Below, piece by piece: positions 1,994 through 43,727 of a stretch of DNA of 43,727 nucleotides (positions are counted from its first letter, which is position 1; each line of letters opens with the position of its first letter). A program made the position numbers and the translations under genes. This DNA is from a virus: positions 1-43,727 of IMG/VR virus record IMGVR_UViG_3300046461_000050, one strand, 5' to 3'. The notes below the pieces were generated by a model. It had not been told where the DNA came from, searched no databases, and saw nothing but the letters and a program-made list of their open reading frames with translations.

Positions 1994-2183
1994 GGCGACT
2001 TTTCAATAGCAGCGCGACCGTTTTTGAGACGGATTCGCCACGCTCCGCGGCTATTTTGCAGTAGCGATCGTGGTCCCTGGCAGGAATCCAAATCGACAAC
2101 TTCGATCCGGGCTCTAGCGATCGCGGCCGACCGCCGCGCCGTTGACCGACGACGAACACTTGCGGATCGTTCGGTTCGCTCAT
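1986..2183 (-). CDS. Small ribbon-helix-helix-like DNA-binding protein
   Basis: This is a 65-residue basic protein. Residues 15-22 are Arg/Gly-rich, then a strand (about 27-33, KLSIWIP) is followed by two predicted helices (about 35-47 and 50-62, with ESVSKTVALLL). That is the Arc/CopG pattern of one strand and two helices. The ATG overlaps the TerL stop by ATGA, so it is co-translated with terminase. It may regulate head genes or act as a small packaging accessory. The fold call is moderate and the target is unknown. Confidence 0.6.
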   Translation of the reverse strand: MSEPNDPQVFVVGQRRGGRPRSLEPGSKLSIWIPARDHDRYCKIAAERGESVSKTVALLLKSRQP

Positions 2184-22031: not shown

Positions 22032-22041
22032 GATGTTACTT

Positions 22042-22203
22042 TCAGATCGCCCGATTCCCGTTGCGCGAGCGCCGGAGGATCCCGGCGTCCTCGAGTCGTT
22101 CCTGTTGCTCCGCGATGATGCGGATCAGTGTGGCGATGCAGGCCCCATGATGCTCATCCGATAATTCGTGCGCCGGCTTCCGGCAGACCGGGCAGATCGT
22201 CAC
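22042..22203 (-). CDS. 53-residue zinc-binding protein
   Basis: CPVC at 4-7 and HH/C residues near 16-20 can bind zinc. The rest is a helix (CIATLIRIIAEQQERLE) with a basic end. GTG 22203 forms GTGA with the previous stop. It may be a small adaptor; function is unknown. Confidence 0.6.
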   Translation of the reverse strand: MTICPVCRKPAHELSDEHHGACIATLIRIIAEQQERLEDAGILRRSRNGNRAI

Positions 22204-22538
22204 CGCTTCGTAGCCTTTGCGTCGTCGAGCTGCCGCTTGATCCATTCGAGATCGGTCTGAATCTTCCCGAGTTGCAATTGCATGATCTGTGCGCTCGCAT
22301 TGTTCTGATCGACGAGCACCGATAGCCGGCTACTCGTTGCCGCGATCGCGACATTGCTGGCCGTCACATCCTGGCGCACGCCTGCGACCGAGTTGAAGCA
22401 CCAGAGGCCGAGCGCGAAGAGAAACGACGACAGTAAACCGATCGCCCAGACGAACGTACTGTTATCGACCTTCCGCGCCAGGACGTGCATGTGCCCCTCT
22501 TCGACATTCTCCGAATCGCTCGCGCGCATCGATCCCAT
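22200..22538 (-). CDS. Single-span membrane protein with a coiled-coil tail
   Basis: A 112-residue protein. Residues 30-52 (FVWAIGLLSSFLFALGLWC) are one membrane helix. About 55-108 is a long helix (LGKIQTDLEWIKRQLDD) likely to form a coiled coil. AGGGGGG precedes ATG 22538. Proteins of this shape occur after tail genes in many siphoviruses, sometimes as holin-like or spanin-like components. Here it could be a lysis or virion-associated factor. Confidence 0.65.
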   Translation of the reverse strand: MGSMRASDSENVEEGHMHVLARKVDNSTFVWAIGLLSSFLFALGLWCFNSVAGVRQDVTASNVAIAATSSRLSVLVDQNNASAQIMQLQLGKIQTDLEWIKRQLDDAKATKR

Positions 22539-22551
22539 TGGCTCGGCCCCC

Positions 22552-24546
22552 CTATGTACTCGATCCGAACGGCTGTTCCCGGTTCGTCTTCGTGACGGCG
22601 AACGTATCCAAGTCGAGTTGATGCACTTGGCAGCGCAGCGCCCGCGGATCGTTGCTAAGCGCGTCGAAATGCGCGAGCGTATCGACCTGGCCGAGATCGG
22701 TATCGACGCCGCATTCCGATTCAGTAAAGGCGACATGGACGGGCGGCGTCGCGTTCTCGTCTAGAATCATTTGCGCGATCGCCGCCGCGGTGTCCTCGTC
22801 CCGGATCAGCTCGAAGTCGACATCCTCCGGCCGCTCGCCGTATTTCGTCACGCTCGGCGCATCCCGCGGCGCGTCCAGACCTTCGACCGAGACGAGCCAA
22901 TCCGGATTGACTTGTGTCGTCGTCTTCGGGAGCAGTTCGCCCTCGGCCGGCGTGCCGCCCGCCAGCGGCGGGACGTAGCGCCGCGCGACGTGGTAGTTGA
23001 CGATGTTACGGACGAGATCCCGCTGACGCTTCGCCTTATAGGATGCCTCGAACACGGTCGCCGGAGGCCCCAGGACGCGATTGATGGGCGCCCCGGTATC
23101 GATGGCCGAGGCGATCAACTGCCCGTGCCGATTCGGCCCATAGTCAAAGTGCCCGTTGCGTGCGAAGAGTGCCAGGAGCTGACCGAACGTCAAGGCCTCG
23201 CCGCCGTGGCCTAGGATGAACGCGCCGAGCACGCCGCCGGCAATCTGCGAATCCCGCAACGTCTTCAAGGCCTCGAACGTCGTCGTATCGATCCGCGAGT
23301 AGAGGCCAGGACTGGATCCGACTGTCGGAGGCGCCAGCCAGGCCCCGGACTGGTAATTGCCGAATACGAAATTGATCAGCAGGTGGAGAAATTGACGATA
23401 GAGATCATCAATCACTCGACCTGTCCCGTCACCGTTTTCGTCGATGCCCCAGAGGTTCGAGACGTGCGGCACCTGGCCGGAGCGCGAGAGATCCGACCGC
23501 GGCCCGAACATATACATCGCGAGATAGGTCCGGCCGTTGCGGGTAATCGTCCGCGCGGATCCGAATTCCGCCGCCCACCAGGACGTACCCGGCCAGGCGA
23601 CCTCGACGAGCCCAGACGCCGCGGTGATTTGCACGCGCGAGGGGTAGGGCGTGCCGGTCGACAGGCCGCCACCGGAGGCCACGAAATGCGATTGCCAGGC
23701 GCCGATGTCGTGACTCGCGGCGATGTATTCATCCCAGAGTTGCCCGCCGCGCGAGGCGAACGGGACGCGCTGTGTAAACGTCCACGGGACGACACCGATC
23801 GGCGTCTCGGCTTCCTCGTCGGAGAGTGCCCCGTACAATATTGGGACAGGTTTCCCGAGCATCGTGGGATTGCCTGGATTCGTCGGATCGCTCGGATCGT
23901 TTCCCATTTGCGGGAAGTCGTCGAGATTGAATACCCTTTGCGGAAATGTCCGCTTATTGAATTCGTCCAGGAGCACTGTGAGGTAATCCGTCACCGTCAG
24001 CGACAAGAGACGGCTAGAGGTCGGATCGACGTCGGTGATGACGCCATCGAAGACGCGCGTTTTATCGTCTGGATCGATTCGCAGGCGCCGTTTCGACGAG
24101 ACATACTGCGTATAGCGACTGCCGACGAGCGAGTCGGTGTCCTCTTGCGCTCGGAGCACGCCATCGGTATCGTCGAGCGTCGGCTGCATGGTCGACCCGA
24201 CGGCCTCGCCTTGCGCGTTCGACAGGGAGCGCGTTACCGTGCCGAACGTGACGGCCCTCGGTTCCTTCGGATCGCCGAGATTGATCGCCACTTTGGCATG
24301 GCGCCAGATCGTGCTGTCGGCCAGCTCGATTTCGGCCCAGGTCGCCAGCGGCGCATCGTTACAGATCGAGGCGTCCGGCGCCGGATTGTCGCCAGGATTG
24401 ACCTCGCCGCCGCCGTCCGGAGGAATGATGATCGCCGGGACGAACGGCCGCCGCTGAATCACCGCGACCGCGACCTGCGTCATCCGGATCGACGTGACGG
24501 CATCGTCTGACGGCGTGCCGGAATCGACGAGCCACGGGCCGAACAA
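22552..24546 (-). CDS. Tail tip/baseplate hub-like protein
   Basis: A 664-residue protein. Residues 10-160 resemble the N-terminal domains of tail tip proteins. A beta-barrel hub-like region (SKRRLRIDPDDKTRVFDGVITDVDP near 150-175 and LSLTVTDYLTVLLDEF) follows. A long middle part contains YRQFLHLLINFVFG, and the end is LDTFAVTKTNREQPF. It probably links the tail tube end to the fibres. TTG 24546 has GGGAG upstream. A CTG at 24588 overlapping the previous stop would add 14 residues. Confidence 0.65.
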   Translation of the reverse strand: MFGPWLVDSGTPSDDAVTSIRMTQVAVAVIQRRPFVPAIIIPPDGGGEVNPGDNPAPDASICNDAPLATWAEIELADSTIWRHAKVAINLGDPKEPRAVTFGTVTRSLSNAQGEAVGSTMQPTLDDTDGVLRAQEDTDSLVGSRYTQYVSSKRRLRIDPDDKTRVFDGVITDVDPTSSRLLSLTVTDYLTVLLDEFNKRTFPQRVFNLDDFPQMGNDPSDPTNPGNPTMLGKPVPILYGALSDEEAETPIGVVPWTFTQRVPFASRGGQLWDEYIAASHDIGAWQSHFVASGGGLSTGTPYPSRVQITAASGLVEVAWPGTSWWAAEFGSARTITRNGRTYLAMYMFGPRSDLSRSGQVPHVSNLWGIDENGDGTGRVIDDLYRQFLHLLINFVFGNYQSGAWLAPPTVGSSPGLYSRIDTTTFEALKTLRDSQIAGGVLGAFILGHGGEALTFGQLLALFARNGHFDYGPNRHGQLIASAIDTGAPINRVLGPPATVFEASYKAKRQRDLVRNIVNYHVARRYVPPLAGGTPAEGELLPKTTTQVNPDWLVSVEGLDAPRDAPSVTKYGERPEDVDFELIRDEDTAAAIAQMILDENATPPVHVAFTESECGVDTDLGQVDTLAHFDALSNDPRALRCQVHQLDLDTFAVTKTNREQPFGSST

Positions 24547-24584
24547 TTGCGGCCAGCTCCCGAGCGTGCGCCCGCGGACATAAC

Positions 24585-25496
24585 TCAGGACAGCGCCCCG
24601 ATCTCGTCGATGGGCTGATTCGCAGCGTCCACCGTGATCGCCGCTGAGAGCGCATTAGTGCCGGCATAGTCGCCCGTGCTGTCTGCGACCTCGAGCGTCC
24701 CGGCATTGTCCCTGACCTTATGCGTCGCCTTCATCACGGCTGCGCCCAAGCAGAGCGGCCCGGCCTTCACGGTCGCCTCAATGGCCGAGGTCTGCCGCGT
24801 GAGGATCGTATCGGCGATCACGGTCGGATCCGATCCCGAGCTGGCAGCGTTCAACGCCTCGCCGGTTGTCCCTGTGCTCAAGTGACCGGCGATGGCCTCA
24901 TCCCAAACCGCATCCGCGATCGCCGCGGCAGACGGCGCCGATCCAGTCGAGATGTCCTGTAGTTGCTTGCCGGCCGATCCGGCTGTCGTGTGCCCTGACA
25001 ACGCCTCGTCCCATACCTGATCCGCGATCTCGTTGCTCACGTCTGCGGCGACCTTTGCCGCCGTGATCGTGTCGGCCGCGAGCGTCGCCGCCGCGATGGC
25101 TCCGGAATTCCAGGCCGTGCCGGCCGCATGCGTCGTGTTGACTTCCGGACGGCCACTGCTGAACGTGCCGTTGCTGCCGCCGAATTGCGTGACGTTGGCC
25201 GGGATCTGCGCCGCCGTCGGATCGTAGCCGAGCGTAAAGACTTGCACCGTCGCCGGCACGGCTGCGGTACCGATGAAGGTAAACGCCGCGAGCGTGCCGT
25301 TCGTCTCGGCCTGGCTCGGGGCATACGTGTGATAGCCGTTACCCTCATGCGTGCAGATCCCGGATCCGACGGTGCCGATCCCCTGCGTGCCGGCGTCGAG
25401 CGTGACATACACCGTCACCGTGCCGGTAAATGCCGATCCGTCGGTCGCGCTGACCATCTGCGCGCCAATCTTTTGACCCGCGACGTTTTTCTGCAT
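24585..25496 (-). CDS. Tail fibre-like protein with VWDEA repeats
   Basis: A 303-residue protein. Residues 1-100 form a beta domain with a THEGNGYHTY motif like that of the gene at 7415-8251. Residues 140-230 hold repeats of the form (I)A-D-(A/Q)-VWDEA-(L/I)-(S/A)-GH separated by about 30-35 residues, typical of phage fibre shafts. The C-terminus is beta-rich. It sits directly after the lectin-like gene and before the tip protein, so it is a fibre or adaptor. Confidence 0.7.
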   Translation of the reverse strand: MQKNVAGQKIGAQMVSATDGSAFTGTVTVYVTLDAGTQGIGTVGSGICTHEGNGYHTYAPSQAETNGTLAAFTFIGTAAVPATVQVFTLGYDPTAAQIPANVTQFGGSNGTFSSGRPEVNTTHAAGTAWNSGAIAAATLAADTITAAKVAADVSNEIADQVWDEALSGHTTAGSAGKQLQDISTGSAPSAAAIADAVWDEAIAGHLSTGTTGEALNAASSGSDPTVIADTILTRQTSAIEATVKAGPLCLGAAVMKATHKVRDNAGTLEVADSTGDYAGTNALSAAITVDAANQPIDEIGALS

Positions 25497-26378
25497 TTAC
25501 CTGATCCCTGGCTGAATGACCGTGTTTGCGTTGCGAGCCCAGGCCGACTGGAACGTCTGACCGGCTGCGGCGCCGCCCAGGAAATAGTACCGCCGCTGCG
25601 TCTCCGGGCCGTACAGGTGCGCGTATGGCTCGGCCGACCACCATCGACACATCTCGTCAGACCATTGCGCGTCGACAACGGAGAGGAAATTGAGCTGAAA
25701 GTTATCGCACACGGTTGACGTTTGCGTGCTATCTCCGACATTGAATGTCTTAGCCGTCGTCCCGTTCGTGCGCGTTATCGCCGTCGACTGACTCGCGATC
25801 TTTACCCCATCCTGCCAGATGGCCGACCCGAGCGGACCGGCCGAAAAAATCCAGCGATGGACGAGCGTCCCGATCGTCGGCGGCGTCACGCTCAGCCGAT
25901 TCGGCGCTAGGAAATTGGGATTGTAGCCGTAATCCCAATAGATTTTGCCGTCGGTGAACGGCAGGAGCGCCGATAGGAAATCGGTATCCTGATTCGTGGT
26001 ACCTAATGCCACCGAAAAGGGCGTAGCCTGCCGGTTCGTGGTGTCCGTCTTCCTGCCGATATATAGGAATGTCCCGTGCGCCGTCGGCAGAACGACCGCG
26101 CCGCAATCAATGCGCGTTGTCGTCGTCGTGAATTGGATCGCTGTGCCGTCGGTATTACTAGCCCAGGTCGGCGTACCGGTGATCGCGAGCGCGTTTGGAA
26201 TCACGCTCCCGAAATGCACGGTCTGCTGCGGATATTGCGGCCCTGATGAACTGAACGTGCCCTGACCATCGAGCGCGAAGAGCGAGAGCACCTCGCCCAG
26301 CGCGAACGGATGCGACGGATTGATCAGGGCGCCCGGCGGCGGTTTCATCATGCCGCGCCGGATGTGCAGATTCGCCAT
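25497..26378 (-). CDS. Concanavalin/LamG-like tail protein
   Basis: A 293-residue protein with a short N-terminal lead (MANLHIRRGMMKPPPGAL). A jelly-roll region of about 200 residues has typical LamG-like strands (GTFLYIGRKTD, LVHRWIFSAGPLGSAIWQDGVKI). The end has MCRWWSAEPYAHLYGPETQRRYYF. Such domains bind glycans in phage tails. The last segment is common in phage virion proteins of this kind. Confidence 0.7.
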   Translation of the reverse strand: MANLHIRRGMMKPPPGALINPSHPFALGEVLSLFALDGQGTFSSSGPQYPQQTVHFGSVIPNALAITGTPTWASNTDGTAIQFTTTTTRIDCGAVVLPTAHGTFLYIGRKTDTTNRQATPFSVALGTTNQDTDFLSALLPFTDGKIYWDYGYNPNFLAPNRLSVTPPTIGTLVHRWIFSAGPLGSAIWQDGVKIASQSTAITRTNGTTAKTFNVGDSTQTSTVCDNFQLNFLSVVDAQWSDEMCRWWSAEPYAHLYGPETQRRYYFLGGAAAGQTFQSAWARNANTVIQPGIR

Positions 26379-26379
26379 G

Positions 26380-26775
26380 TTAGGACGTGCTCAAGCTGTC
26401 GACGGTATCGCCAGTGATCTCACACGTGACGGCGTTCGTCGCGTCGAGATTCGTAACCTTGATATTGTATTTACCCGTTCCGAGAAAGAAGTCGAGCCCT
26501 TCTGTCGTGCTCGCCGTTGTGGACGGCATCGTAAATGAGAGCAGCGCCGTCGGTGATGTTGTCGGACTCGAACCATAGCGCCGAAAGACATCGACCCGGA
26601 CGCCGCGCGTCGCCGCCACCGATCCGCCTGGCGTGTTCAGGACGTGGATCTGCGCCTCGAATTTGCCCGAGTAATCGACGTCATAATTAGCCGTGCCGGC
26701 ATTTGCCAGCGAAGACGAGCTGCGGATGTTGCCGGCGGCGTTTCCGGTATAGACCGGGACGGTTGTCGTTGACAT
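26380..26775 (-). CDS. Small beta-rich tail protein
   Basis: A 131-residue Thr/Ser-rich protein, predicted beta sandwich (FEAQIHVLNTPGGS, VRVDVFRRYG, KYNIKVTNLDATNA). ATG 26775 follows AGGGGAA. It is placed between two lectin-like genes. It is probably a decoration or fibre component, with no enzyme motif. Confidence 0.6.
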   Translation of the reverse strand: MSTTTVPVYTGNAAGNIRSSSSLANAGTANYDVDYSGKFEAQIHVLNTPGGSVAATRGVRVDVFRRYGSSPTTSPTALLSFTMPSTTASTTEGLDFFLGTGKYNIKVTNLDATNAVTCEITGDTVDSLSTS

Positions 26776-26784
26776 CGGTTCCCC

Positions 26785-29007
26785 TTAAAGAGTGCTGATC
26801 CGCACCGGCCATTGCAGCGCGTCGAACGCCGCGGCGCCAAAGACTGAAGAATCCGGCATTTTGTCCATCGGTTCCCGCAAAAACTTCCAATCGGTCGGCG
26901 GCGTTTGCTCGTGCGGAAACGTCAGCGTCGCCGCTTGCTGCACGCCAACCGCGACCGTTACCGCGCCGCTGACGATCGCGCCTGTTTTGATGCACGGCAT
27001 CGGTTGCATCCCGAGGATCTCACGGTCCGGAAATGGGATCGGATCGACGTAGGTTTCCTCGATGGCCCCGTCGGACGCCTCGAACGCATACGTCAAGTCA
27101 TCGTCCGGCGTGACGTCGTCGAGCACCGCGACGTGATCAACGCCGGTATTGATTTGAAATTGCTGCGTCGTCCCGATGATGCGGTTATTCGACCAGAGCG
27201 CCCAGACGTCGACAGGCCCGAGGAGATCATTGAGCCTCGGCCCGCCAGCGTCCAATACGACGAGATGCGAGTAATCCGTATCGCCATCCGACGTTGCGTA
27301 GATCCGGAACCGATCCCACTGCGGGAGCGCCGCCCCTTGCGCGTTGACCCCGGAGATCGACAGGACGACGCGCGGCGTCACATCACCGGCCTGGTAGACG
27401 TGCACGACGACGAGCCCCGTCGGATTCAACATGTTCGCCTTCCACGCGAGATAGATCCGCGTGTTGAGCGGGACGACGTAGGACGACGGCGAGCTGATCG
27501 GCGTGACGCCTCGGAAGATTTGCAGCGTCCGATCGGCGTTGAGGTTGAGCGACACTTGCGAGCTGTTGAAATAGAGAAACTCCGAAATGATGACGCGCGC
27601 GCTCGGTCCGGCACTGATCCGAAAGTCGGATTGCAGCACGGCTTTCGCGCTTGCCGCGCTCAAGGTGCGCTCGAGGTAATCGCCCTGGCTCCCGCTGAAC
27701 CGAATACCGGATTGCCCGGCCGGTCCATACGGCCCGGTCGCAATCGTCCCGCCGGCCGATTCTGAGGAATACATCCGGAGGCGTTGCGGCCCTGTGTAAT
27801 GGCTGAAGGGATCACAGAAGAGCAGGCCGTTCAGCTCGCCGACAGAGATCCCCCAGAGCAGGCCCGCCAGGACCATCGTGATCCCGCCGGTACCGCTCGT
27901 CGTCACGATCTTAAGCGCGACGAGATCCGTTGCCGCGATCGCGTCAAAGTGTTCGATGTCCTCGAAGTCTCCGATGCCCCCGGCCGGAATCGTAAACGTG
28001 GAGTTTCCGTCGACGCCGTTGATCACGAGCGTCACCGTCAGCGTTCCCGGCGATGTGTTATTGGAAATCCGGAAACGCAACCGGCTGAGCGCCCCGGCCA
28101 TTTGCAACCGATGTTCGGCATCGGCTAAGGTCGCGCTCGATTGTCCCGATCCCATGACGGAGAGGTACGACGTGCCCGCGGCACTGTACGTGCGGAACGT
28201 CGTTTCGTAGAACATCGCCTGATCGTTGACCGTGACCAGATCGATCGCCTTCCATGACGCCGCGATGACGCCCGAGAGGCCGGTCACGGTGAGCACCCAT
28301 TTCGCCCGGCTCCCGACCGCCACATCTGCGGTATGCGTCGTATCCTCGATCGTGCCAGTCACACCGGCCGCGAAATTGACGCTGATCGCCGTCGCCGCGC
28401 CGTCGACCCACAGCACAAAGGTTGAATCGTCGTCCCGCGTATTGGTCGCCAGCTTGACCGCCGCATTACGGAGCGTCCCGGCCGTCTGGAACGTGCACCA
28501 GACATCGTCGCCCGTCGTGCTGACCGATCCCGCGACGCCGGCCCCGGCGATCGGCATGTGCGATGTCCCGCCGCCATGCGTCCCGGTTTCGATGTGGACG
28601 TAGCGCGTAACCGAATCCGTATCAGCCGCAAAAAGGCAACCGATCGCGTCGTAGCTGAAGGCCCCAGACCCGGCGCCTCGGACGACTTCGACGTTGACAT
28701 CATCCCCGGCCGCGATCGCATCGGTGCCGGCGGCCTCGAAATGGCCGATCGTGTTGGCCGGAATCGTAATCACCGACGAGCCCGGCGACCCGTTGATCTG
28801 GATCGTGACTGTGCCGGAGGCCGGACGGGTATTCGCTAGGACGTTGATGAACAGCTTCGAGATCGTGCCCGGCGAGCGGTAGCGGATGCGTGTCCGAACA
28901 TCGCCCAGATTGTTCAGGAGGACCGCGCCACAGCCAATCGGCTGGAACACATCCGGACCGCCTCCGAAGCCCCCGACGAGCGTTGAGACGTGCGGGATCG
29001 CCGCCAC
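26785..29007 (-). CDS. Large minor tail protein with duplicated jelly-roll and lectin-like domains
   Basis: A 740-residue protein. Residues about 20-145 and 265-385 are two related beta domains sharing the pattern G-T-(V/L)-T(V/I), N-G-x-G and (D/E)xIxAxDxV, that is, an internal duplication. About 390-600 is a concanavalin/LamG-like region (YLERTLSAASAK, IYLAWKANM). HLVVLDAGGPRLNDLLGP near 595-612 is typical of phage tail lectin domains. The rest is a C-terminal beta domain. It probably contributes to receptor binding at the tail tip. Confidence 0.75.
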   Translation of the reverse strand: MAAIPHVSTLVGGFGGGPDVFQPIGCGAVLLNNLGDVRTRIRYRSPGTISKLFINVLANTRPASGTVTIQINGSPGSSVITIPANTIGHFEAAGTDAIAAGDDVNVEVVRGAGSGAFSYDAIGCLFAADTDSVTRYVHIETGTHGGGTSHMPIAGAGVAGSVSTTGDDVWCTFQTAGTLRNAAVKLATNTRDDDSTFVLWVDGAATAISVNFAAGVTGTIEDTTHTADVAVGSRAKWVLTVTGLSGVIAASWKAIDLVTVNDQAMFYETTFRTYSAAGTSYLSVMGSGQSSATLADAEHRLQMAGALSRLRFRISNNTSPGTLTVTLVINGVDGNSTFTIPAGGIGDFEDIEHFDAIAATDLVALKIVTTSGTGGITMVLAGLLWGISVGELNGLLFCDPFSHYTGPQRLRMYSSESAGGTIATGPYGPAGQSGIRFSGSQGDYLERTLSAASAKAVLQSDFRISAGPSARVIISEFLYFNSSQVSLNLNADRTLQIFRGVTPISSPSSYVVPLNTRIYLAWKANMLNPTGLVVVHVYQAGDVTPRVVLSISGVNAQGAALPQWDRFRIYATSDGDTDYSHLVVLDAGGPRLNDLLGPVDVWALWSNNRIIGTTQQFQINTGVDHVAVLDDVTPDDDLTYAFEASDGAIEETYVDPIPFPDREILGMQPMPCIKTGAIVSGAVTVAVGVQQAATLTFPHEQTPPTDWKFLREPMDKMPDSSVFGAAAFDALQWPVRISTL

Positions 29008-29008
29008 G

Positions 29009-29776
29009 TCACAGCCAGCCTTTTTGCTGCTCGTCGAAATCGAGCGTAATCGAGTCGAGATACTGACCCGCGGTTTCGGTCGGCGCCACGTAGAGAAATT
29101 CCCGGAGGTCCGTCGCGAGGTCGACGAGCATGGCGTCCGTATCGTCCTCGTCGCGAATCAGGAGAAAGTTTCGGAACTGGCCTTGCGTGTCGCGCTCGAG
29201 CGCCAGCAGATCATCCCGAACCTCGTCGCCGAGCGCCGTCGCGTGGAGACCGCGGTAGCGGACCCCGAGCCCGAGTTTTTTCTTCACGCCGTAATCGGTG
29301 ACGTGCACGATCGTCCGGTGCGTTTCTCGGTCGCTCGGATTCGGCGCCCATTGGATCTTGAGTGTCCGTAACGATTCGGCCAGGATAGGCAGGCCGAGCG
29401 CCACGCCTGACGGACCAGTCAACGCAATGTCCCACGTCGTGCTCGAGGCGTTCGCGACTTCGCGCAGATCGATCCAGGGATCGAGATAGAGCCCGTCGAG
29501 CGGGAGCGCCGGGATCGTGACCATTTCGTTCAGCCCGGCGCCGTTCGTGACCTGGATCGCCGTCGCGTTCGTGTTGATGAAGGCGATCGCCTCGAGCGGT
29601 TGCGCGCCCGCGAACGTCGCCCGATAGGTGATCGTGGTCCCGCTCGACTTCGCCACGGTATACACGAAGGCGTCGGACAGATTCGCCAGCGGATAGAGCG
29701 CGTCGACGGATCCGGCCTGGACGCTCCACGTCGCGTCGCTCGTGACGATGTCGGAAGGCCTGGAATAGAGCGCCAT
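29009..29776 (-). CDS. Distal tail/minor tail-like protein
   Basis: A 255-residue protein directly after the tape measure. It has an N-terminal beta-sandwich (IVTSDATWSVQAGSVDALYPLANL, YRATFAGAQPLEAIAFINTNA) and a C-terminal domain with RDTQGQFRNFLLIRDED and DFDEQQKGWL. This resembles proteins that cap the tape-measure end of siphophage tails. Its stop lies next to the large minor tail gene. Confidence 0.65.
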   Translation of the reverse strand: MALYSRPSDIVTSDATWSVQAGSVDALYPLANLSDAFVYTVAKSSGTTITYRATFAGAQPLEAIAFINTNATAIQVTNGAGLNEMVTIPALPLDGLYLDPWIDLREVANASSTTWDIALTGPSGVALGLPILAESLRTLKIQWAPNPSDRETHRTIVHVTDYGVKKKLGLGVRYRGLHATALGDEVRDDLLALERDTQGQFRNFLLIRDEDDTDAMLVDLATDLREFLYVAPTETAGQYLDSITLDFDEQQKGWL

Positions 29777-35678: not shown

Positions 35679-36026
35679 TCAGCCTTTCGCGATCGTCATT
35701 AAGGCGATCTGATGATTCAGCCCGATCGGAGACGCCGTCACGATGTCGTACACCCGGCCGAATAGCTTCAGCCGCCGGTACTTCGGCACGTTGACCCGCT
35801 CCGGATCCATGTCGGCCTGGTACGGCATCGTCCACCGCGTGTCGTAGCGCGAGTTGAGGCCTTCATTCTGGAAAGCCTCATCCCCGCTCGAATCGTCGCG
35901 CCGCATCCAGGCTTGGCCGAGCGTCGCCCACGTTTCGACCGGCCGCCCCGAGGGTCCGGCCGTTTCCGTCATCTGCTGGATCGTCACCAGTTTCGTCCGC
36001 GCGCCGGCCGCCGCGACGCTCGGCAT
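35679..36026 (-). CDS. Head closure/head-tail joining protein
   Basis: A 115-residue protein, all beta (VTIQQMTETAGPSGRPVETWATLGQAWMRRD and YRRLKLFGRVYDIVTASPI). It matches the phage head-tail joining family. It resumes the morphogenesis operon after the sugar cassette; its ATG shares one base with the cassette's last stop. Confidence 0.82.
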   Translation of the reverse strand: MPSVAAAGARTKLVTIQQMTETAGPSGRPVETWATLGQAWMRRDDSSGDEAFQNEGLNSRYDTRWTMPYQADMDPERVNVPKYRRLKLFGRVYDIVTASPIGLNHQIALMTIAKG

Positions 36027-36661
36027 CAGGACTCCAGCCTCGACAGCGCCGGGACGTCCCAGGGTTTCGGCCGGCCGTGAAAGCAGACGACGCGCGCGCC
36101 GGCCGGCACGCCCCGATCCCGACAGTGCACCTTATAGGACACCGCCTGACCTGGGACGACATCGTCCCAGAACGTGACCGCCTTGAGACGTTCCCGCTCG
36201 ATCCACCGTTGATCGCCGCCGGTCAGATACCGCGCCATGACCCCGCCGGCATCGGCCGCGAAGCCGGTATACAGATCGTCCTGTTCGCCCGCCGTCCACA
36301 TCATCAGGCCCGACCCGAGCCCGCGCGTCGGTTGCAACGGCGGCCGGCGGTAGAAGTCGGCCAACGCCAGGAACGGCTCGCGCCGCCGGATCATGTCGTC
36401 GAGCGGCCCGACAATCGTGGAATCCAGATCGAGATAGAGAATCCGCGCCCCGCGGGGAAACATGCCCGGCGCGAACAGTTCCAGCTTCGCCCACCAACCC
36501 GACCAGCGGCCCGACAACGGCACCGTCGGCACCCCCGGCACCGGAACATCGGACAGGCAGACGATCGCCTCGCCTGGGGCAAATGTGCGCGCCTGAGCGG
36601 CCAATCTGACGACGTGCTCCGGCCGATAGATCCCGCCGGACCGCAGGACGCAGGCGATCAC
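36026..36661 (-). CDS. GT8-like glycosyltransferase
   Basis: A 211-residue GT-A-fold transferase. IACVLRSGG at the start, KLELFAPGMF near 70-79, the metal-binding DLD in ILYLDLDSTIVG near 84-95 and the C-terminal CFHGRPKPWD near 195-204 follow the family 8 order. Donor and acceptor are unknown. GTG 36661 forms GTGA with the previous stop; a longer upstream frame overlaps the finger gene and is not needed. Confidence 0.82.
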   Translation of the reverse strand: MIACVLRSGGIYRPEHVVRLAAQARTFAPGEAIVCLSDVPVPGVPTVPLSGRWSGWWAKLELFAPGMFPRGARILYLDLDSTIVGPLDDMIRRREPFLALADFYRRPPLQPTRGLGSGLMMWTAGEQDDLYTGFAADAGGVMARYLTGGDQRWIERERLKAVTFWDDVVPGQAVSYKVHCRDRGVPAGARVVCFHGRPKPWDVPALSRLES

Positions 36662-36807
36662 AGATACCGCCCGCCGCACGCGCGGCACAGATAGAGCATC
36701 CAGCCGTTGCCCTCGAAATAGAACCGGGCGAAGACGGGACGCGCCCAGCATCGGGCGCACTGCGCCTCGGCCGGGAGATGTTGCGTCTCGATTCGAGACA
36801 CGATCAC
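36658..36807 (-). CDS. 49-residue CxxC/CxxC protein
   Basis: A GTG-started microprotein, GTGA-coupled at both ends to glycosyltransferase genes. It has CARC at 17-20 and CRAC at 41-44, separated by a 20-residue aromatic segment (FARFYFEGNGWMLYL). The simplest reading is a zinc ribbon. In a cassette with a radical SAM enzyme and transferases, a modified peptide substrate is a more speculative alternative. Confidence 0.75.
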   Translation of the reverse strand: MIVSRIETQHLPAEAQCARCWARPVFARFYFEGNGWMLYLCRACGGRYL

Positions 36808-37508
36808 GGCTGCACCTCGATCCGCTCGTGATCCCACTTGCCAGCCCGAAAGACCCGCTCCGCCTTCATCGCGTCGAAGGCCGCCCGATTGCCCCGTCCG
36901 AACCAGTTCTCCCGCTCACCGATGTGCGCGACCCGAAACGGGACGCATTGCACCGACTTACCGGCCTTGCGCCAGCGGTCCATAAAGCGATTGTCGTAGT
37001 TCCCGGCGTGCGTCCAATGGCAATCGAGCAACGGCGACGCCTGGACGGCGGGATCGGTTGAATGGTAAAGCTGAAAATAGCCGACCCCTGCCACGTCGAA
37101 CGCGCACTTCGCCTGCCCGCGGTCCTCGAGCGCGTCCGGCGTCGCGTCGTAGCGCAGACAGCCATGCAGACGATCCGGTTGCGGCCGGTTCCGGTCCAAT
37201 CGCGCGAGCCAGTCGGCCGGCGGGACGACGTCGGAATCAAAAAACAGCCGCCAGCCGGGATCCTTCAGGAGCCAGGCGCGACTGTGCGCCGCTTCCATCG
37301 CTCGGCCTTTGTTGAAGGCCGCCCCGTCGCGATAGAACAAGTCGGTCACAAACACGTCGACGCCGGCCTCGGCGCACAGCTCGATCGTCGCCACGTCCCG
37401 CGGCGCCGTCACGACGGTCAGCGATTCCAGGCCGGGAAGCCAATGCGGGAGCCCGACCCGGAGAAATTCGGCGTAGTCGACGCAGACCGTCAGCCCGTGG
37501 ATCTTCAT
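36804..37508 (-). CDS. GT-A-like glycosyltransferase
   Basis: A 234-residue protein. A Rossmann-like start (HGLTVCVDYAEFLRVGLPHW, TVVTAPRD) is followed by AFNKGRAMEAA, which contacts nucleotide-sugar in this class, and FFDSDVVPP near 88-96 as the metal site. The C-terminal half has HWTHAGNYDNRFMDRW. Related proteins are common in phages of unknown sugar target. ATG 37508 overlaps the methyltransferase stop (ATGA). Confidence 0.75.
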   Translation of the reverse strand: MKIHGLTVCVDYAEFLRVGLPHWLPGLESLTVVTAPRDVATIELCAEAGVDVFVTDLFYRDGAAFNKGRAMEAAHSRAWLLKDPGWRLFFDSDVVPPADWLARLDRNRPQPDRLHGCLRYDATPDALEDRGQAKCAFDVAGVGYFQLYHSTDPAVQASPLLDCHWTHAGNYDNRFMDRWRKAGKSVQCVPFRVAHIGERENWFGRGNRAAFDAMKAERVFRAGKWDHERIEVQP

Positions 37509-38035
37509 GGCTTCGTCACCCACCATGACACCGATTCCTGCGGTTCGAGCGTCGTCTGCAATTCGAGGCCTTCCGTCCGCACAAATTCATCGACCGCCCG
37601 CCGCACGCCCGCGCATTCCTCTGTGTAATCGTGCCCGGCCAGAATCCCGCCTGAAACGACTTGCGGCCACCAGTCGGCGATGTCAGCCTTCGCGGAGTCG
37701 TAGGCGTGATCGCCGTCGATGTAGACGAACCCCGGATGATGATACGGCAGGCCCGGCATGAGTTCGGCGGCCCGATGGCCCGTCATCCGCAACAGGCGAA
37801 ACTTTTGACGATAGGGCGCCAGCAATTGCACCGCGATCAGCAGATCCGGCAGGCGATCGAAATCCATCTGATCGTAGGGCGCCCACGGATCGACGCAGAC
37901 CAACACCTCGGCGCACGTCCAGCGTTCGAGCAAGGCCGACGCGAACAGCGCGCGATCGCACCCGATTTCGATCCCGCGGCGGATCCCGCGCGCGTTCAGC
38001 AGATCGGCGAAATTGACCCGGCTATGGAGTTTCAC
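37505..38035 (-). CDS. Class I SAM-dependent methyltransferase
   Basis: A 176-residue enzyme. GIEIGCDRALFA near 19-30 is motif I, CVDPW near 45-49 the acidic loop, and FVYIDGDHAYDSAKADIADW with GGILAGHDY near 94-128 the signature of the Methyltransf_24/TylF-like group. These act on sugars or small molecules and can require a metal at the DGDH site. GTG 38035 overlaps the previous stop. Confidence 0.85.
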   Translation of the reverse strand: MKLHSRVNFADLLNARGIRRGIEIGCDRALFASALLERWTCAEVLVCVDPWAPYDQMDFDRLPDLLIAVQLLAPYRQKFRLLRMTGHRAAELMPGLPYHHPGFVYIDGDHAYDSAKADIADWWPQVVSGGILAGHDYTEECAGVRRAVDEFVRTEGLELQTTLEPQESVSWWVTKP

Positions 38036-38988
38036 GCGGGCACCCCTGCCGCGGCAGTCGCAATCGCCCGATCGAGCGCGGCGCCGACCGTCCGGTAATC
38101 GTAGAAGGCGCGCGCCTGTGCCGCCCATTCCAGCCGTTCATCGAGATCCCAGACCCGCAACTGATCCGACAGCACGGCCCGCAATTCCCGGAGGCCGATG
38201 GTCGGCTTCACCCGCACGAGCGCCCCGTCGATCGCCGGGAGCACGTCGAAGGCCGGCAGATCGGTAATCACCGTGCAGCCTACGGCGACCGATTCGATGA
38301 TCTTCCGGAGCGCAAACCCGAACATCGACGCCGTCGCGACGTGCACCTTATACCGGGCGATTCGCTTCAAGTACTCCGGCGTCGTGCTGCCCCGGTTCCC
38401 GTACCCCGGATGTTTCAGCACATCGATCCCGAGCATGGCCTGATCCCGGATGATGCGCTGTCTCAGCGGATAGCTTTTCGAGACCGCCCCAGACACCACG
38501 GCGCCGCCGCGCGGCCGCCGCAAGTCGATCGGATCGAGGTCGGCGACGTTGACGGAATGGTACGTCCGGATCAGCGCCTTCCCCTGCAACCATCCGCTGT
38601 ACTGTTCCACCGCGCGCGAATGGTAATAGACGATCGCCGCATCGGCCCCGACAGAGTCGAAGAATTGCGCCTGATATTCGAGGCTCGTCGCGGCGTCCTT
38701 CACCACGACGGCCTTGAAAGCGCCGTGGTTTCGCAGCGACGGCACGCGCCCGAAGCCAATATCCTTACGGAAACAGATCGGCGAATTCGGATCCCAATCG
38801 CGCGGATCGTGCACCACGACGAGATCCGGCTGATAAGCGTCGAGTATTTCGACGACGTCAGTCCGCCCGTCGTACCCCGCGCCAGCGAGCGTCCAGCCGG
38901 CCGATCCCAGCCCTTCCTGGAATTGGTCGCCCTCGCTCGTCATGTGACGGCGATAGTCGATGTTCGCCAAGACGACGCGCGCGCTCAT
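38032..38988 (-). CDS. GT-B glycosyltransferase
   Basis: A 318-residue protein. It has an N-terminal Rossmann part (RVVLANIDYRRHMTSEG, DLVVVHDPRDWD, AIVYYHSRA). The C-terminal donor domain has HVATASMFGFALRKIIESVAVGCTVITD near 230-257, the Glyco_trans_1-type loop that holds the nucleotide sugar. ATG 38988 overlaps the radical SAM stop (ATGA). Acceptor is unknown. Confidence 0.8.
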   Translation of the reverse strand: MSARVVLANIDYRRHMTSEGDQFQEGLGSAGWTLAGAGYDGRTDVVEILDAYQPDLVVVHDPRDWDPNSPICFRKDIGFGRVPSLRNHGAFKAVVVKDAATSLEYQAQFFDSVGADAAIVYYHSRAVEQYSGWLQGKALIRTYHSVNVADLDPIDLRRPRGGAVVSGAVSKSYPLRQRIIRDQAMLGIDVLKHPGYGNRGSTTPEYLKRIARYKVHVATASMFGFALRKIIESVAVGCTVITDLPAFDVLPAIDGALVRVKPTIGLRELRAVLSDQLRVWDLDERLEWAAQARAFYDYRTVGAALDRAIATAAAGVPA

Positions 38989-39878
38989 GGCTTCACCGTC
39001 CGGAGGCCTTGATAGTCCGTCGGCGATTGCGTCGTCAGCGTTTCCCCGTCGCCGTGGAGCTGTAACCGCATGTGCGGCGACTGGAGCCTGCCGGCGACCA
39101 GCGGCACAAACGATTGCGTGTAGTCGTAGGTCGCGTCGACGTCCCGATGCCCGAGACGCCGGAGCGGCACGCCGCATCCTTCATCGCAACAGCGCCGGAC
39201 TTGCGTCGCGAACCGGTCCATCTTGAACTGCCACCATCCCGAGACGGCCGGGATCCCGTGATTCTCTCCCCGGATGCCGTCGAGCGCCCCGGCGACTTCG
39301 CAGAAGTACGCGAACGGCGCCCCGTCGCGCTCGAAGATGGCCGCGGACCAGTGCTGATTGATGTCGCATGACTCCCGCGCCGCGATCCATTCGGACGGCA
39401 GCATCCCGAGATCCCGCCAGTCGAGCAACAGCGGCGAGTGCCACGAGGCCCGGTCCCGAGAGGTCGGAATCAGCCGGCCAGGGAGCCACTTGTCGATCTC
39501 GGCTGCCGCCGCGGCGTCGGCGTGCGCGTTGAGATTGAACCGGCCGAGCGGGTAGAAGACCTCGCGGACGAGCGCCCCGTGTTTGAGTAGATTGTTCGTC
39601 CAGATCCCACGCTGACGCTGATCCGGCACCTCTTCGACGAGCACGGCCATGAGATCCGTGAACCGCGGATGAATGCAGGGATTCCCGCCGAAGACGCCCC
39701 GGATCCCTTTCCAGCCTTTCAGCGACCGCAACGCCTGACGGAACACGTCGACGCTCATATGTGCGACGTCGTGCCGGAAGGGTAGCAACTGGGTACAGTT
39801 CGAGCACCACATCAGATCGCACGATCGCGAGATCACGATCTGGATCGTGTCGTTGCTCTTGTCCGTCGGCGCCTTCAT
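38985..39878 (-). CDS. Radical SAM/SPASM-like protein with a Cx4Cx2C site
   Basis: A 297-residue protein. SRSCDLMWCSNCTQ near 17-30 carries the cluster cysteines as C20-x4-C25-x2-C28, one residue more than the canonical C-x3-C-x2-C. GVFGGNPCIHPRF near 61-73 matches the GGEP-type SAM-binding motif, and WTNNLL near 93-98 the next strand. Cysteines at 171, 193, 230, 231 and 235 form a SPASM-like C-terminal set for extra clusters. ATG 39878 overlaps the MptE-like stop. It could modify a sugar or a peptide; substrate is unknown. Confidence 0.75.
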   Translation of the reverse strand: MKAPTDKSNDTIQIVISRSCDLMWCSNCTQLLPFRHDVAHMSVDVFRQALRSLKGWKGIRGVFGGNPCIHPRFTDLMAVLVEEVPDQRQRGIWTNNLLKHGALVREVFYPLGRFNLNAHADAAAAAEIDKWLPGRLIPTSRDRASWHSPLLLDWRDLGMLPSEWIAARESCDINQHWSAAIFERDGAPFAYFCEVAGALDGIRGENHGIPAVSGWWQFKMDRFATQVRRCCDEGCGVPLRRLGHRDVDATYDYTQSFVPLVAGRLQSPHMRLQLHGDGETLTTQSPTDYQGLRTVKP

Positions 39879-40474
39879 AGCGTCGCCTCGAGCGCCGCGC
39901 GCGGAAAGCAATGCAGCGCCGTCGCGCGCGTGCAGTTCACGATCGCCACGCCGGCCGCCTGCAACGGCCCGACGAGCGATTGGAAATAGGGGATCCACTG
40001 CGCGAAATTCATCCGCGGATTGCCAGGATGATCGGCGTGCCAGTGTTGGCGACCAGCCTCGGCGGTCTGCATGTCGTAGCCCAGGAGCACGATCCGGCAC
40101 ACGCCGAAGTGCACGGCCAGGTTGATCGCCTGATAACCGCTGTTGCGGCCGGTCCGCACCGTATGCGGCTCGAGCGCGAGCCCGCGATCGCCGGTTGCCG
40201 TCAGCGTGACGACGCCAAACGCCGGATCCGGCCGTTCGAGCGAATATTTCAGGCCCTTGAAATCCATCGCGCCCTTATGCCAGTGCCACCATCGACGATC
40301 CGCGGCGTAGAGCACCTCCGCCCACGGCGCGAGCGTATACGTCGAATTGATCACGATCGTCCGCGCCTTGCCCCGACAGTACTCGACGTCATCCGGCGTC
40401 AGGCTCGGCCCGCTGGCGCAAATGACCGCCGTTTCCCCCGGCCACAACCGCGGCACCGTGACGAGCTGCCCCAT
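39875..40474 (-). CDS. MptE/DUF115-like protein
   Basis: A 199-residue protein. AVICASGPSLTPDDV near 16-30 is the nucleotide-binding GPSL loop of this fold. YAADRRWWHWH follows near 56-66, then a second motif VLLGYDM near 128-134 with HWHADHPGN, and IVNCTRATALHCFPRAAL at the end. Bacterial relatives are linked to surface glycan or pseudaminic-acid addition and to pterin diphosphokinases. It begins the sugar cassette, 1 base after the connector stop. Confidence 0.7.
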   Translation of the reverse strand: MGQLVTVPRLWPGETAVICASGPSLTPDDVEYCRGKARTIVINSTYTLAPWAEVLYAADRRWWHWHKGAMDFKGLKYSLERPDPAFGVVTLTATGDRGLALEPHTVRTGRNSGYQAINLAVHFGVCRIVLLGYDMQTAEAGRQHWHADHPGNPRMNFAQWIPYFQSLVGPLQAAGVAIVNCTRATALHCFPRAALEATL

Positions 40475-40475
40475 G

Positions 40476-40796
40476 TCACGAACAGGCCGGCGACCGCCAG
40501 CCGATCAAGACGGACCACGCCCGCGGACAGAGCCCGCCGCGCTCGTCGAGTTTCAGATTCGCCCCGGTGTCCCGCTCGAACATCCACAAGACTTGCTCGA
40601 GGATCGCGCCCTGGATGCCGGGCGGAACGGTGTCCTCGTCCCACAGATCCGTCATCGTCGGATTGTTGCAAAACTGGATCGCCGCCGACGAGGCTTGCTC
40701 GATCATCAGTTGCAGATCGTCGTCTTCGGCCGTTTCCAGAATCCGGCACCGCTTGCGCGCGACGTCGAGCGTGACGAGCGTGACGGGATCGGCCAT
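40476..40796 (-). CDS. Head-tail connector (gp6-like)
   Basis: A 106-residue helical protein. TLDVARKRCRILETAEDDDLQLMIEQASSAA is the familiar N-terminal helix pair of gp6-type connector proteins, and ILEQVLWMFERDTG follows. It forms a ring under the portal. ATG 40796 overlaps the previous stop by one base (TAATG). A longer frame upstream overlaps the collagen-like gene and is spurious. Confidence 0.85.
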   Translation of the reverse strand: MADPVTLVTLDVARKRCRILETAEDDDLQLMIEQASSAAIQFCNNPTMTDLWDEDTVPPGIQGAILEQVLWMFERDTGANLKLDERGGLCPRAWSVLIGWRSPACS

Positions 40797-41875
40797 TAGT
40801 CGCCGTCCTTCCCGTCCTTGCCGTCTTTCCCATCCGACCCGCGCCGGACGGCCATCCGCCAGGCCTTTGACTCGCCGGGCCGATCGCGCGTGTCCTCTTG
40901 CGCGATCCAGAAGGATCCGCCATGCGTCACGCCGGCGCCCTTCCGGTAGAGCGTCCCTAGCTTGAAGACGCCTTCGTCGGTCGGGATCGGGATGTCCCAC
41001 TGCCCCAGGACGCTCCCGTCCTTGCGATAGAGCGTGATCGTCCGCTTGCCGTCGAAATCCGCGCGCGCGTCCTCGAGCGTCCCGTCCCGGCCGGGCGCCC
41101 CAGGCGCACCGGGCGCCCCGTCCTTCGGCCTCGGCCATGACTTCATCTGATCGGCGACGGCCTGCCGGACCCACTCCGGATCGGGCGCCACCAGGCCGGC
41201 GTCTTTCGTCTGTCCATCGGAGAATGTAAGTTGGAGCGTGCCCTGTCGCGTGATGACACCGCCGACGACGCTGATCCCGTCGCGCCCGTCTTTCCCGTGG
41301 AGGCCATCGATCCCTGCCCGGCCTTCCGGACCCACGATCCCGACGCCGTCTTTTCCGTCGATCCCGTCCCGGCCGTCTTTCCCTTGCAGCCCGACGCCAT
41401 CTTTTCCGTCAATCCCGTCCCGGCCGTCTTTCCCTTGCAGCCCGACGCCATCTTTTCCGTCAATCCCGTCCCGGCCGTCTTTCCCGGCGAGGCCGACGCC
41501 ATCCTTACCCGCCGGTCCGGTGATGGATTCCCCGCGCTCGCCCCGTTCCCCGCGCTCGCCCTGGATGCCGACCCCAGGCGGCCCGGCTGGACCCGGCGGC
41601 CCGGCGATCGGTTGTAGCGACTTCACCGCCGCCGACCATTCGGCCATGAGCGGCCGCACGTCGAGACTGGCCGACTTCGCCGCGGCAAGCTCCACGCCGA
41701 GCGCGTCGACGCGCAGCATCAGTGCATCGAAGGCCATCCCCGATTGCTTGATCCGCTCCGCATAGTCCGCGCGCGCCGCCTGCACATCCGTCTCGAATTT
41801 GGCCGTCAGCCTCCGCTCGAGGCCTTGCATACTGGCGATGATCCGATCCATCAGAGGCGAGAGATCAAGACTCAT
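40796..41875 (-). CDS. Collagen-like virion protein
   Basis: A 359-residue protein. Residues 1-85 are a helical domain that may trimerise (LMDRIIASMQGLERRL). About 90-200 are Gly-x-y repeats of collagen type, including exact repeats built on GKDGRDGIDGKDGVGLQ. From 200 the protein is globular (TLQLTFSDGQTKDAGL). A second short collagen segment lies near 250-262. The end has GVFKLGTLYRKGAGVTHGGSFWIAQED, similar to small carbohydrate-binding modules, then GSDGKDGKDGKDGD. ATG 41875 overlaps the portal stop (ATGA). It is probably a head fibre. Confidence 0.85.
   Translation of the reverse strand: MSLDLSPLMDRIIASMQGLERRLTAKFETDVQAARADYAERIKQSGMAFDALMLRVDALGVELAAAKSASLDVRPLMAEWSAAVKSLQPIAGPPGPAGPPGVGIQGERGERGERGESITGPAGKDGVGLAGKDGRDGIDGKDGVGLQGKDGRDGIDGKDGVGLQGKDGRDGIDGKDGVGIVGPEGRAGIDGLHGKDGRDGISVVGGVITRQGTLQLTFSDGQTKDAGLVAPDPEWVRQAVADQMKSWPRPKDGAPGAPGAPGRDGTLEDARADFDGKRTITLYRKDGSVLGQWDIPIPTDEGVFKLGTLYRKGAGVTHGGSFWIAQEDTRDRPGESKAWRMAVRRGSDGKDGKDGKDGD
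41332..41484 (-). repeat. 51-bp tandem repeat in the collagen-like gene
   Basis: Units at 41383-41433 and 41434-41484 are identical, and the unit before them (41332-41382) differs slightly. Each codes for 17 residues in which GVGLQ interrupts the Gly-x-y series. Exact DNA copies mean recent duplication or gene conversion, and a likely site of length variation or misassembly. Confidence 0.85.
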
Positions 41876-43254
41876 ACGAGTACTTCCGCCTTTGTGTCCC
41901 ATTCGATCAGCGCCGCTTTCACCGCCGCCGCGGCGTCAATCGGCGGATTCGGATCCGGCATCGGTGCCGGCGGCGTCGGCGGCCGCTGCGATGGCATTTC
42001 GCGATCGGCCAGGAGCTTAATCGGCCAATTCTGCTCTTGCAGGTACGGTGTCTCACCGCCATCGACCGGCCCGAGATCGAGCCATCGCTTCCGCGCCTCG
42101 TTCGGCGACGCGCCGCCGCTGATCGCATCTTGTGCGACCTTGATCCGTGTCGCCGTATCCATTTGGAACAGATCGTCAAGATTGAACTTGACCATCAGAT
42201 CGCGCCCTGGCACGTTCGGCAGGCCGATCCCGTCGCCGAGCACCGCTTGGAGGTTCACGATATGGTTCTGTAGGCAGTCGGAGTAGTACTGCTGATTTAG
42301 TGCCTCGACGCTACTGATCGTCGGATCCGGCCCGATGCCGACCTTATAGCGCGGGATGTGGAAACAGCGCGCGATGTCCTCGTCCGTCATCCGGAGCTGT
42401 TCGATCAACTGCGATTGCTCGGCCGTCGCCGCCATCGCCTGATACGTCATCCCGCCGGTCAGGACCGCGAGCTTGCCGACGTTATCCCCGGCGTGATTCG
42501 TTTCCCAATCGGCCTTCAGTTGATCGGCCGCGGTCTGATTGATGTTGCCCGGCACGAGCAAGAGGCCGCCCGGTCGCGATCCGTTGGCAAAAAACTTGTC
42601 GGACTGATCCCGGATGTGCAGGCCCTGGAGCGCCGGCCATCCGGCGGCGTAAATCGGTGAGACGCCGCAGAGCGGATGGAACAGCGGACATTCGGTGTCG
42701 TGCATGATCTCGCGCGCCGGCACCGTGACACTTTCGGCCTGATTCAGCGGATCGGTATAGAGCTGATAGAAAACCGAGCCATCCGGCGCGACGAGCGGCA
42801 TGACCCGGCAGGGATCGAGGATGTAGCCGGCCGTGACGACGTTGCGCGCGTCTCGAACCTTGAGCACGAACGTATTCCCGTGCGCCAGCTTCGAGACCAT
42901 CCACCATTCAATAAAATCGACCCACGTCTGAAAGTGGTTCGGCTTTCGCAGGAACGGCGAAAACGCCGGGCTGTCCTCGGCTTCGGTCCAAATCCCGTTG
43001 GCGTCCTCTTCGTAGAGATAGACGCAGAGCTTCGCCACGTCGCGCGCGATCAAGGTGATGCAGGCGTAGAGCGTGGGATTTGCTAGGACTGTTTCGGGCC
43101 GCACGATCTCGTTGCGTTGCCAGCCGCCGGACGTGATCTCATGCAGGAAACCCGACCACCAGCCGCGCGATCCCGTCACGCCGACGAGGCTCATCGACTT
43201 TTCCGCCAGCTCCGGCCGCGGCTTCCGTTCGAGCGTCCAGCCGAACAGGTCCAT
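41872..43254 (-). CDS. Portal protein (HK97 family)
   Basis: A 460-residue protein that forms the 12-fold DNA gate. ANPTLYACITLIARDVAKLCVYLYEED near 57-83, the LAHGNTFVLKVRD segment near 122-134, YQLYTDPLN and LSPIYAAG-type helix (CGVSPIYAAGWPALQG) are standard for HK97 portals. The end is Pro-rich with a helix. It shares one base with the previous stop (TGATG). Unusually, it follows the capsid gene. Confidence 0.93.
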   Translation of the reverse strand: MDLFGWTLERKPRPELAEKSMSLVGVTGSRGWWSGFLHEITSGGWQRNEIVRPETVLANPTLYACITLIARDVAKLCVYLYEEDANGIWTEAEDSPAFSPFLRKPNHFQTWVDFIEWWMVSKLAHGNTFVLKVRDARNVVTAGYILDPCRVMPLVAPDGSVFYQLYTDPLNQAESVTVPAREIMHDTECPLFHPLCGVSPIYAAGWPALQGLHIRDQSDKFFANGSRPGGLLLVPGNINQTAADQLKADWETNHAGDNVGKLAVLTGGMTYQAMAATAEQSQLIEQLRMTDEDIARCFHIPRYKVGIGPDPTISSVEALNQQYYSDCLQNHIVNLQAVLGDGIGLPNVPGRDLMVKFNLDDLFQMDTATRIKVAQDAISGGASPNEARKRWLDLGPVDGGETPYLQEQNWPIKLLADREMPSQRPPTPPAPMPDPNPPIDAAAAVKAALIEWDTKAEVLV

Positions 43255-43566: not shown

Positions 43567-43599
43567 GCGCCGGCCGTCCTATCCCTGGACGGCCGGCGC
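43567..43599 (-). terminator. 13-bp perfect hairpin after the capsid gene
   Basis: Arms at 43567-43579 and 43587-43599 are perfectly complementary, with a 7-base loop at 43580-43586. The element lies between the capsid stop (43611, equal to 38) and the next start codon (43550). On the minus strand it is followed by a GAGG ribosome-binding site and no run of T. It is therefore unlikely to be a strong intrinsic terminator. An attenuator, or a 3' stabiliser of the abundant capsid message, fits better. The contig ends cut through this element. Confidence 0.6.
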
Positions 43600-43727
43600 C
43601 GGTGCGTGTGCTATGCCGACGGCGTCGGTGCGTACGCCGCCCCGGTGATGATCTGGACGGCTTCGCTGCGCCGCTTCTTCCACGTCACCCACCGTTCGGC
43701 GCGGATGCCGACGCAGTTTTTCTGCCA
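43574..43727. repeat. Terminal direct repeat, right copy
   Basis: Right-hand copy of the first 154 bases. From 43611 onward it re-encodes the C-terminus of the major capsid protein on the minus strand. The stop codon at 43611-43613 is equivalent to 38-40. It should be collapsed with the left copy when the genome is circularised. Confidence 0.9.

Follow-up and report, generated by a model that had tools for sequence, protein, structure and literature searches.

A conserved six-gene cassette of putative glycan enzymes within phage head-neck genes and its association with a collagen-like protein

Why should a phage keep a run of sugar enzymes and a radical S-adenosylmethionine (SAM) enzyme among the genes that build its neck? 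The question is raised by IMG/VR virus record IMGVR_UViG_3300046461_000050, whose 43,727 nt were analysed as a whole and are referred to here as the window. Seven minus-strand open reading frames (ORFs) fill positions 36026-40474, with a gp6-like head-tail adaptor on one side and the head closure protein Hc1 on the other. From 5' to 3' they encode an MptE-like protein, a radical SAM (rSAM) enzyme, a GT-B-type glycosyltransferase, a methyltransferase (MT), a GT-A-type glycosyltransferase, a small protein with CxxC motifs and a GT8-type glycosyltransferase. We believe that this cassette is probably a virion-glycosylation module, expressed late, whose enzymes would assemble a modified O-glycan on a protein of the particle, above all on the fibre with collagen repeats. 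The argument starts from the gene order, its conservation, the predicted folds of genes 1 and 2, and the link between gene 1 and the ORF for the collagen-like protein.

The first-pass annotation had described a seven-gene cassette between the gp6-like connector and the head closure gene, with an ATGA or GTGA overlap at every junction. All six junctions within the cassette are 4-nt overlaps of this kind, but the two outer ones differ: gp6/MptE (TGACATG) leaves a 1-nt gap and GT8/Hc1 (TGATG) a 1-nt overlap. Likewise, seven ORFs do occupy the interval, but the conserved core comprises six genes. The 49-residue ORF with two CxxC motifs (36658..36807, minus strand) is a lineage-specific 147-bp insertion between GTGATCG repeats, clean in that both start-stop overlaps are left intact. 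It is missing from the close relative L001 (L numbers denote the related contigs and loci used for comparison) and was therefore rejected as a cassette member; the seven-gene unit was likewise abandoned for a six-gene core in a variable slot.

The order MptE-rSAM-GTB-MT-GTA-GT8 is kept at the same place, from gp6 to the downstream neck and tail genes, in L001, L013-L015 and L016. Between L013 and the window, the portal proteins are 43% identical and the gp6 proteins 32%, compared with 71% for the rSAM proteins. The ratio of nonsynonymous to synonymous substitution rates (dN/dS) of the six core genes is 0.07-0.17, indicating purifying selection. Since the order is kept in independent contigs and dN/dS is this low, we conclude that the cassette is more than a chance assembly. 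Other phages hold partial sets (rSAM, GT-B, GT-A) near gp6, Hc1 or the tail tube gene, and among portal-selected loci the slot is empty in some, with gp6 abutting Hc1, and filled by several kb of enzymes in others. Elsewhere, the slot genes belong to GT2, GT8, GT9, GT-D, FkbM and other methyltransferase families. Because its content varies in this way, the gp6-Hc1 slot is, judging from these family assignments, a hotspot for exchangeable glycan genes, of which the window holds one version. The earlier idea of a complete coupled set thus holds for the six genes found together beside connector genes in the loci named above, but it describes a single form of a variable hotspot. In tblastn searches, relatives of the rSAM, GT-B and GT-A proteins were absent from 50,697 phage records, and those of the rSAM protein also from 72,556 plasmids. 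A different radical SAM protein with a B12-binding domain occupies the same slot at L207:3575-5011 and L237:10343-11767; this domain was assigned through a Pfam match of one member of the scanned set and, for L237, judged by its similar start.

Gene 1 (39875..40474, minus strand) is MptE/DUF115-like. It matches phrog_4603 (3e-49), a family named alpha-2,3-sialyltransferase, and scores 23.8 bits against the Pfam MptE-like family (DUF115, PF01973), under the curated cut-off of 34.6. The best match of its structural model (predicted local distance difference test, pLDDT, 95) is the catalytic domain of Maf (5mu5; Z 15.3 over 180 of 199 residues), followed by CstII (Z 12.1) and an MptE-type HPPK (Z 11.5). 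The model therefore has the catalytic fold shared by Maf/GT42-type glycosyltransferases, a group whose members pass a nonulosonic acid to an acceptor. This call rests on a second structure aligner; Foldseek alone gave weak matches to the model, none with E below 0.001. Maf enzymes O-glycosylate Ser/Thr residues of flagellin (PMC11339370). By its best fold matches, gene 1 is nearest to these protein O-glycosyltransferases and may share their activity. Unlike the Maf flagellin glycosyltransferases, with which it has the catalytic-domain fold in common, it is a stand-alone 199-residue domain.

Two genes upstream of gene 1 lies the collagen-like protein (40796..41902, minus strand; PF01391 7e-11), with 33 G-X-Y triplets in runs of at least five. 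For 71 distinct loci that carry gene 1, most of them retrieved through similarity to it, the sequence reached far enough upstream to be examined. A collagen ORF stands immediately before gene 1 in 29 of them and the order is collagen-gp6-gene 1 in 27 (together 56/71), while two more have it slightly farther away. In L201, L203, L213 and L263, the portal gene is over 3 kb away from the collagen/gene-1 pair. A set not biased towards gene 1, made up of 40 distinct phages chosen by portal similarity and scored for triplets in the ORF that follows the portal gene, gave a median of 39 G-X-Y triplets with gene 1 and 9 without (Mann-Whitney p=1.3e-6, n=40). At least 20 triplets were present in 21/23 phages with gene 1 versus 1/17 without; this cut was picked after viewing the data, and the rank test needs no cut. 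When collagen was scored as present or absent under a lenient repeat threshold, the test reached just p=0.046; the strong signal came from repeat length. As a separate observation, the collagen-like proteins at L013:2177-2959, L132:11439-12227 and L168:8299-9480 end in a CBM5/12-like carbohydrate-binding domain, scoring under the Pfam cut-off.

Several findings weigh against the proposed module and its tie to the collagen-like fibre. On the portal tree, which requires about seven changes in gene-1 state, the four supported independent contrasts run nearly all in the expected direction, with a sign test of p=0.125, four being too few for significance. Ser/Thr, the acceptors of Maf-type enzymes, are scarce in the G-X-Y repeats, and a search for Ser/Thr/Lys bias in the repeats found no clear enrichment in cassette-bearing phages. 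The MptE-type diphosphokinase fold (Z 11.5) also matches gene 1, and a pterin kinase remains compatible by fold. There is no gene for synthesis of nucleoside diphosphate sugars among the assigned genes of the cassette. Furthermore, no collagen ORF was detected with the rSAM cassettes of L004, L027, L031, L032, L034, L035 and L115 or at several gene-1 loci with distant portals. In phage PAJU2, gene 1 is accompanied by a neighbour ORF and a methyltransferase, and the protein after the portal has no G-X-Y repeats. Based on the collagen-free rSAM cassettes and PAJU2, we conclude that collagen is a frequent but not a necessary partner of the cassette. Decoration of a virion protein such as this fibre, as first proposed, is accordingly backed by the Maf fold of gene 1, its adjacency to collagen ORFs and the triplet association, but not by these collagen-free cases. 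The first-pass annotation had also held that homologous phages with the same virion proteins but with scattered or missing cassette genes, together with virions free of sugar modification, would refute its proposal, and the first of these is formally and in part what we see, with 17 of the 40 portal-selected phages devoid of any cassette.

The cassettes without collagen lend themselves to a variant of the same explanation, with which its probability overlaps: the glycan may sit on another virion protein of the capsid, neck or tail, and the collagen link may be indirect. The phages with collagen-free rSAM cassettes have ordinary portal, protease and capsid genes, PAJU2 has a cassette, though not an rSAM one, without collagen, and capsid glycans are reported for the mycobacteriophages Che8 and Rita (PMC11256854). 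However, the association of gene 1 with collagen repeat length and its direct adjacency to the collagen ORF count against an indirect link, and we consider this variant a serious but rather unlikely contender.

Alternatively, the target of the cassette could be a polysaccharide on the host surface, altered late in infection so as to block superinfection or to keep progeny from re-adsorbing to debris. Pelagimyophage host-recognition clusters, whose glycosyltransferases have been read as host-surface modifiers, also hold radical SAM gene cassettes (PMC7029224), and one slot gene weakly matches a GtrB-like family. Nevertheless, none of the cassette proteins has a strongly hydrophobic, potentially membrane-spanning segment (KD19 maximum 1.47), and such a segment was absent from 114 of 115 slot ORFs. 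O-antigen conversion (gtr) systems are defined by a membrane flippase, GtrA, and membrane-bound GtrB/GtrC, and no such family occurs among the seven proteins. In addition, no promoter-like site was seen at the cassette, which sits inside the head-neck operon, and gene 1 is linked to the collagen-like ORF. We therefore regard modification of the host surface as improbable.

Gene 2 (38985..39878, minus strand; model pLDDT 93) is a predicted twitch radical SAM enzyme. Its core cysteines C20, C25 and C28, the three-cysteine radical SAM motif, are invariant in 37 phage and cellular homologues, as are C171, C193, C231 and C235, which together with the predicted twitch fold point to one four-cysteine auxiliary cluster. 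A SPASM domain with two auxiliary clusters was rejected in favour of twitch because just these four auxiliary cysteines are invariant. The core motif is spaced CX4CX2C in 10/37 homologues and CX3CX2C in 27/37; the window clade has the former (residues 20-28), with one residue more than the canonical spacing that relatives retain. Gene 2 has no Pfam match of its own, and the radical SAM call comes from relatives matching PF04055 and from the fold. The nearest structures are SpeY (Z 17.0 over 248 residues), an enzyme of spectinomycin synthesis, and then BtrN (Z 12.4), both of them twitch dehydrogenases, at identities of 12-15%. BtrN is a twitch enzyme that oxidises an aminocyclitol hydroxyl (PMC9012708). 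Some rSAM relatives are fused to glycosyltransferase domains, namely exostosin GT47 (L008) and GT2 (L042, L098, L102), and the one in L097 to an FkbM methyltransferase-like domain, judged by eye. The fold match to SpeY and BtrN and the glycosyltransferase fusions place gene 2 in sugar chemistry, closest to the sugar/aminocyclitol dehydrogenases, whose activity, a two-electron oxidation of a carbohydrate or cyclitol hydroxyl, it may share. It has the overall fold and the three plus four cysteine cluster ligands of these enzymes and differs in the CX4CX2C spacing of the window clade (CX3CX2C in SpeY/BtrN) and in being encoded in a phage structural operon. It is also conceivable that the enzyme acts on a peptide side chain, for example in the fibre, like maturases of ribosomally synthesised and post-translationally modified peptides, instead of on a sugar. 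The peptide-acting SPASM enzymes anSME, SuiB and ChlB come next in the fold list (Z 9-10.7), but SpeY and BtrN rank above them and the fusion partners are glycosyltransferases, and we think a peptide substrate quite unlikely.

The remaining core genes, all on the minus strand, are predicted to encode glycan enzymes. Gene 3 (38032..38988), a GT-B-type glycosyltransferase by its motifs, has no Pfam match and carries a C-terminal R-K-x-x-E-x-V-A-x-G-C motif conserved in 6-11 homologues. Gene 4 (37505..38035, GTG start) is a putative SAM-dependent methyltransferase (PF13578, 2e-11). Gene 5 (36804..37508) is assigned to the GT-A type, likewise from motifs, through a DxD whose D91 and D93 are invariant in an alignment of 13 homologues; it has no Pfam match itself, and one relative weakly matches the GT2 family PF13704. 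Gene 6 (36026..36661, GTG start), with a DLD motif, is related to P1 PmgQ (31% identity); it has no Pfam match, and its GT8-like assignment comes from phrog_1962 (1e-38). Sequence searches of the PDB with alignments gave nothing useful for gene 1 or the rSAM, GT-B and GT-A proteins, and weak GT8-type matches for gene 6.

Some phage glycosyltransferases glucosylate hydroxymethylated DNA and a DNA methyltransferase is present in the genome, but hypermodification of phage DNA bases is highly improbable here, given the Maf fold of gene 1, the structural-operon position and the lack of a base-hydroxymethylating enzyme among the window genes scanned (part of the total).

In the virion-glycosylation pathway that we infer, from late expression and enzyme activities to sugar identity, acceptor residue, order of steps and product on the virion, gene 1 would start the glycan by linking a sugar to a virion protein, which in this phage is most likely the fibre with collagen repeats. 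The GT-B, GT-A and GT8-type enzymes would lengthen the chain, and the twitch radical SAM enzyme would turn a hydroxyl on one of the sugars into a ketone or epimerise it through the same radical chemistry. Capping would then fall to the methyltransferase. Sugar donors would come from the host, and the varying composition of the cassette among phages would give each lineage its own glycan.

How does this compare with known phage systems? The statement that such enzymes are known singly in phages was too weak, since P1 (pmgO/pmgP/pmgQ), Citrobacter phiNP, Pseudomonas phi_D3 and PAJU2, and Caulobacter CcrBL9 each hold at least two related or similar enzymes together. The P1 pmgO-pmgP-ppp-pmgQ cluster resembles the cassette in that genes for a GT8-like protein and two members of the MptE family stand together in a region with a morphogenetic annotation; it differs in lacking rSAM, GT-B and GT-A, in the phosphatase in between and in lying outside a portal-connector operon. 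In the neck-region cassettes of PAJU2 and phi_D3, a gene-1 homologue lies among connector genes together with a methyltransferase gene and another ORF that looks like an enzyme, but the gene order relative to Hc1 is different, there is no rSAM and, in PAJU2, collagen repeats are missing. Phage-encoded glycosyltransferases, which along with a glycan on a purified virion protein define phage virion glycosylation systems, are predicted in the cassette as well. The capsid glycans reported for mycobacteriophages Che8 and Rita have been attributed to such enzymes (Freeman et al. 2023, cited in PMC11256854). This theme is shared with the window, where it is predicted from the genes, whereas Che8 and Rita use other glycosyltransferase genes, and that source mentions neither a Maf-like glycosyltransferase nor a radical SAM enzyme. 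A search of the open-access literature, with most subscription papers outside it, turned up nothing published on this cassette. Virion glycosylation as such is already known; the apparent novelty lies in assigning the first two enzymes by fold, in the constant set of six genes and in the connection with collagen-like fibres.

More tentatively, and with the balance leaning somewhat against it, uncultured tailed phages may include a large group with an exchangeable set of glycan-making genes that serves to O-glycosylate a neck fibre of the collagen-like kind, the sugar being methylated and oxidised by a radical reaction. We know of no earlier virion glycosylation pathway in which a radical SAM enzyme takes part, and the decorated fibre would be the phage equivalent of glycosylated collagen. 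Phage particles are usually regarded as bare protein; if this proposal is true, many phages in the environment carry a sugar coat, which would affect their adsorption and stability and the way they are recognised. The unexplained 'sialyltransferase' or 'morphogenetic' genes (phrog_4603, P1 pmgO/pmgQ) of well-known phages would also gain a function. The question can be tested in cultured Pseudomonas phages.

In the tail region of the window (20727-29776), seven genes are without a match in PHROG; five of them were also scanned against Pfam and matched nothing there. The cassette is flanked on the minus strand by the gp6-like adaptor (40476..40796; PF05135 4e-6, phrog_40 3e-10) and Hc1 (35679..36026; PF05521 4e-12, phrog_25 1e-9). 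The portal gene (41872..43254; phrog_2271 1e-95, phrog_12 6e-92), the protease-fused capsid gene (38-1927) and the terminase (2180-3787) are on the same strand. Read across the junction of the record's ends, the minus-strand order is terminase, protease-fused capsid, portal, collagen-like protein, gp6 adaptor, cassette, Hc1 and tail genes. The ends themselves (1-154 and 43574-43727) form a direct repeat of 154 bases with one mismatch, and the record is therefore probably a complete genome of about 43.6 kb, circular or terminally redundant.

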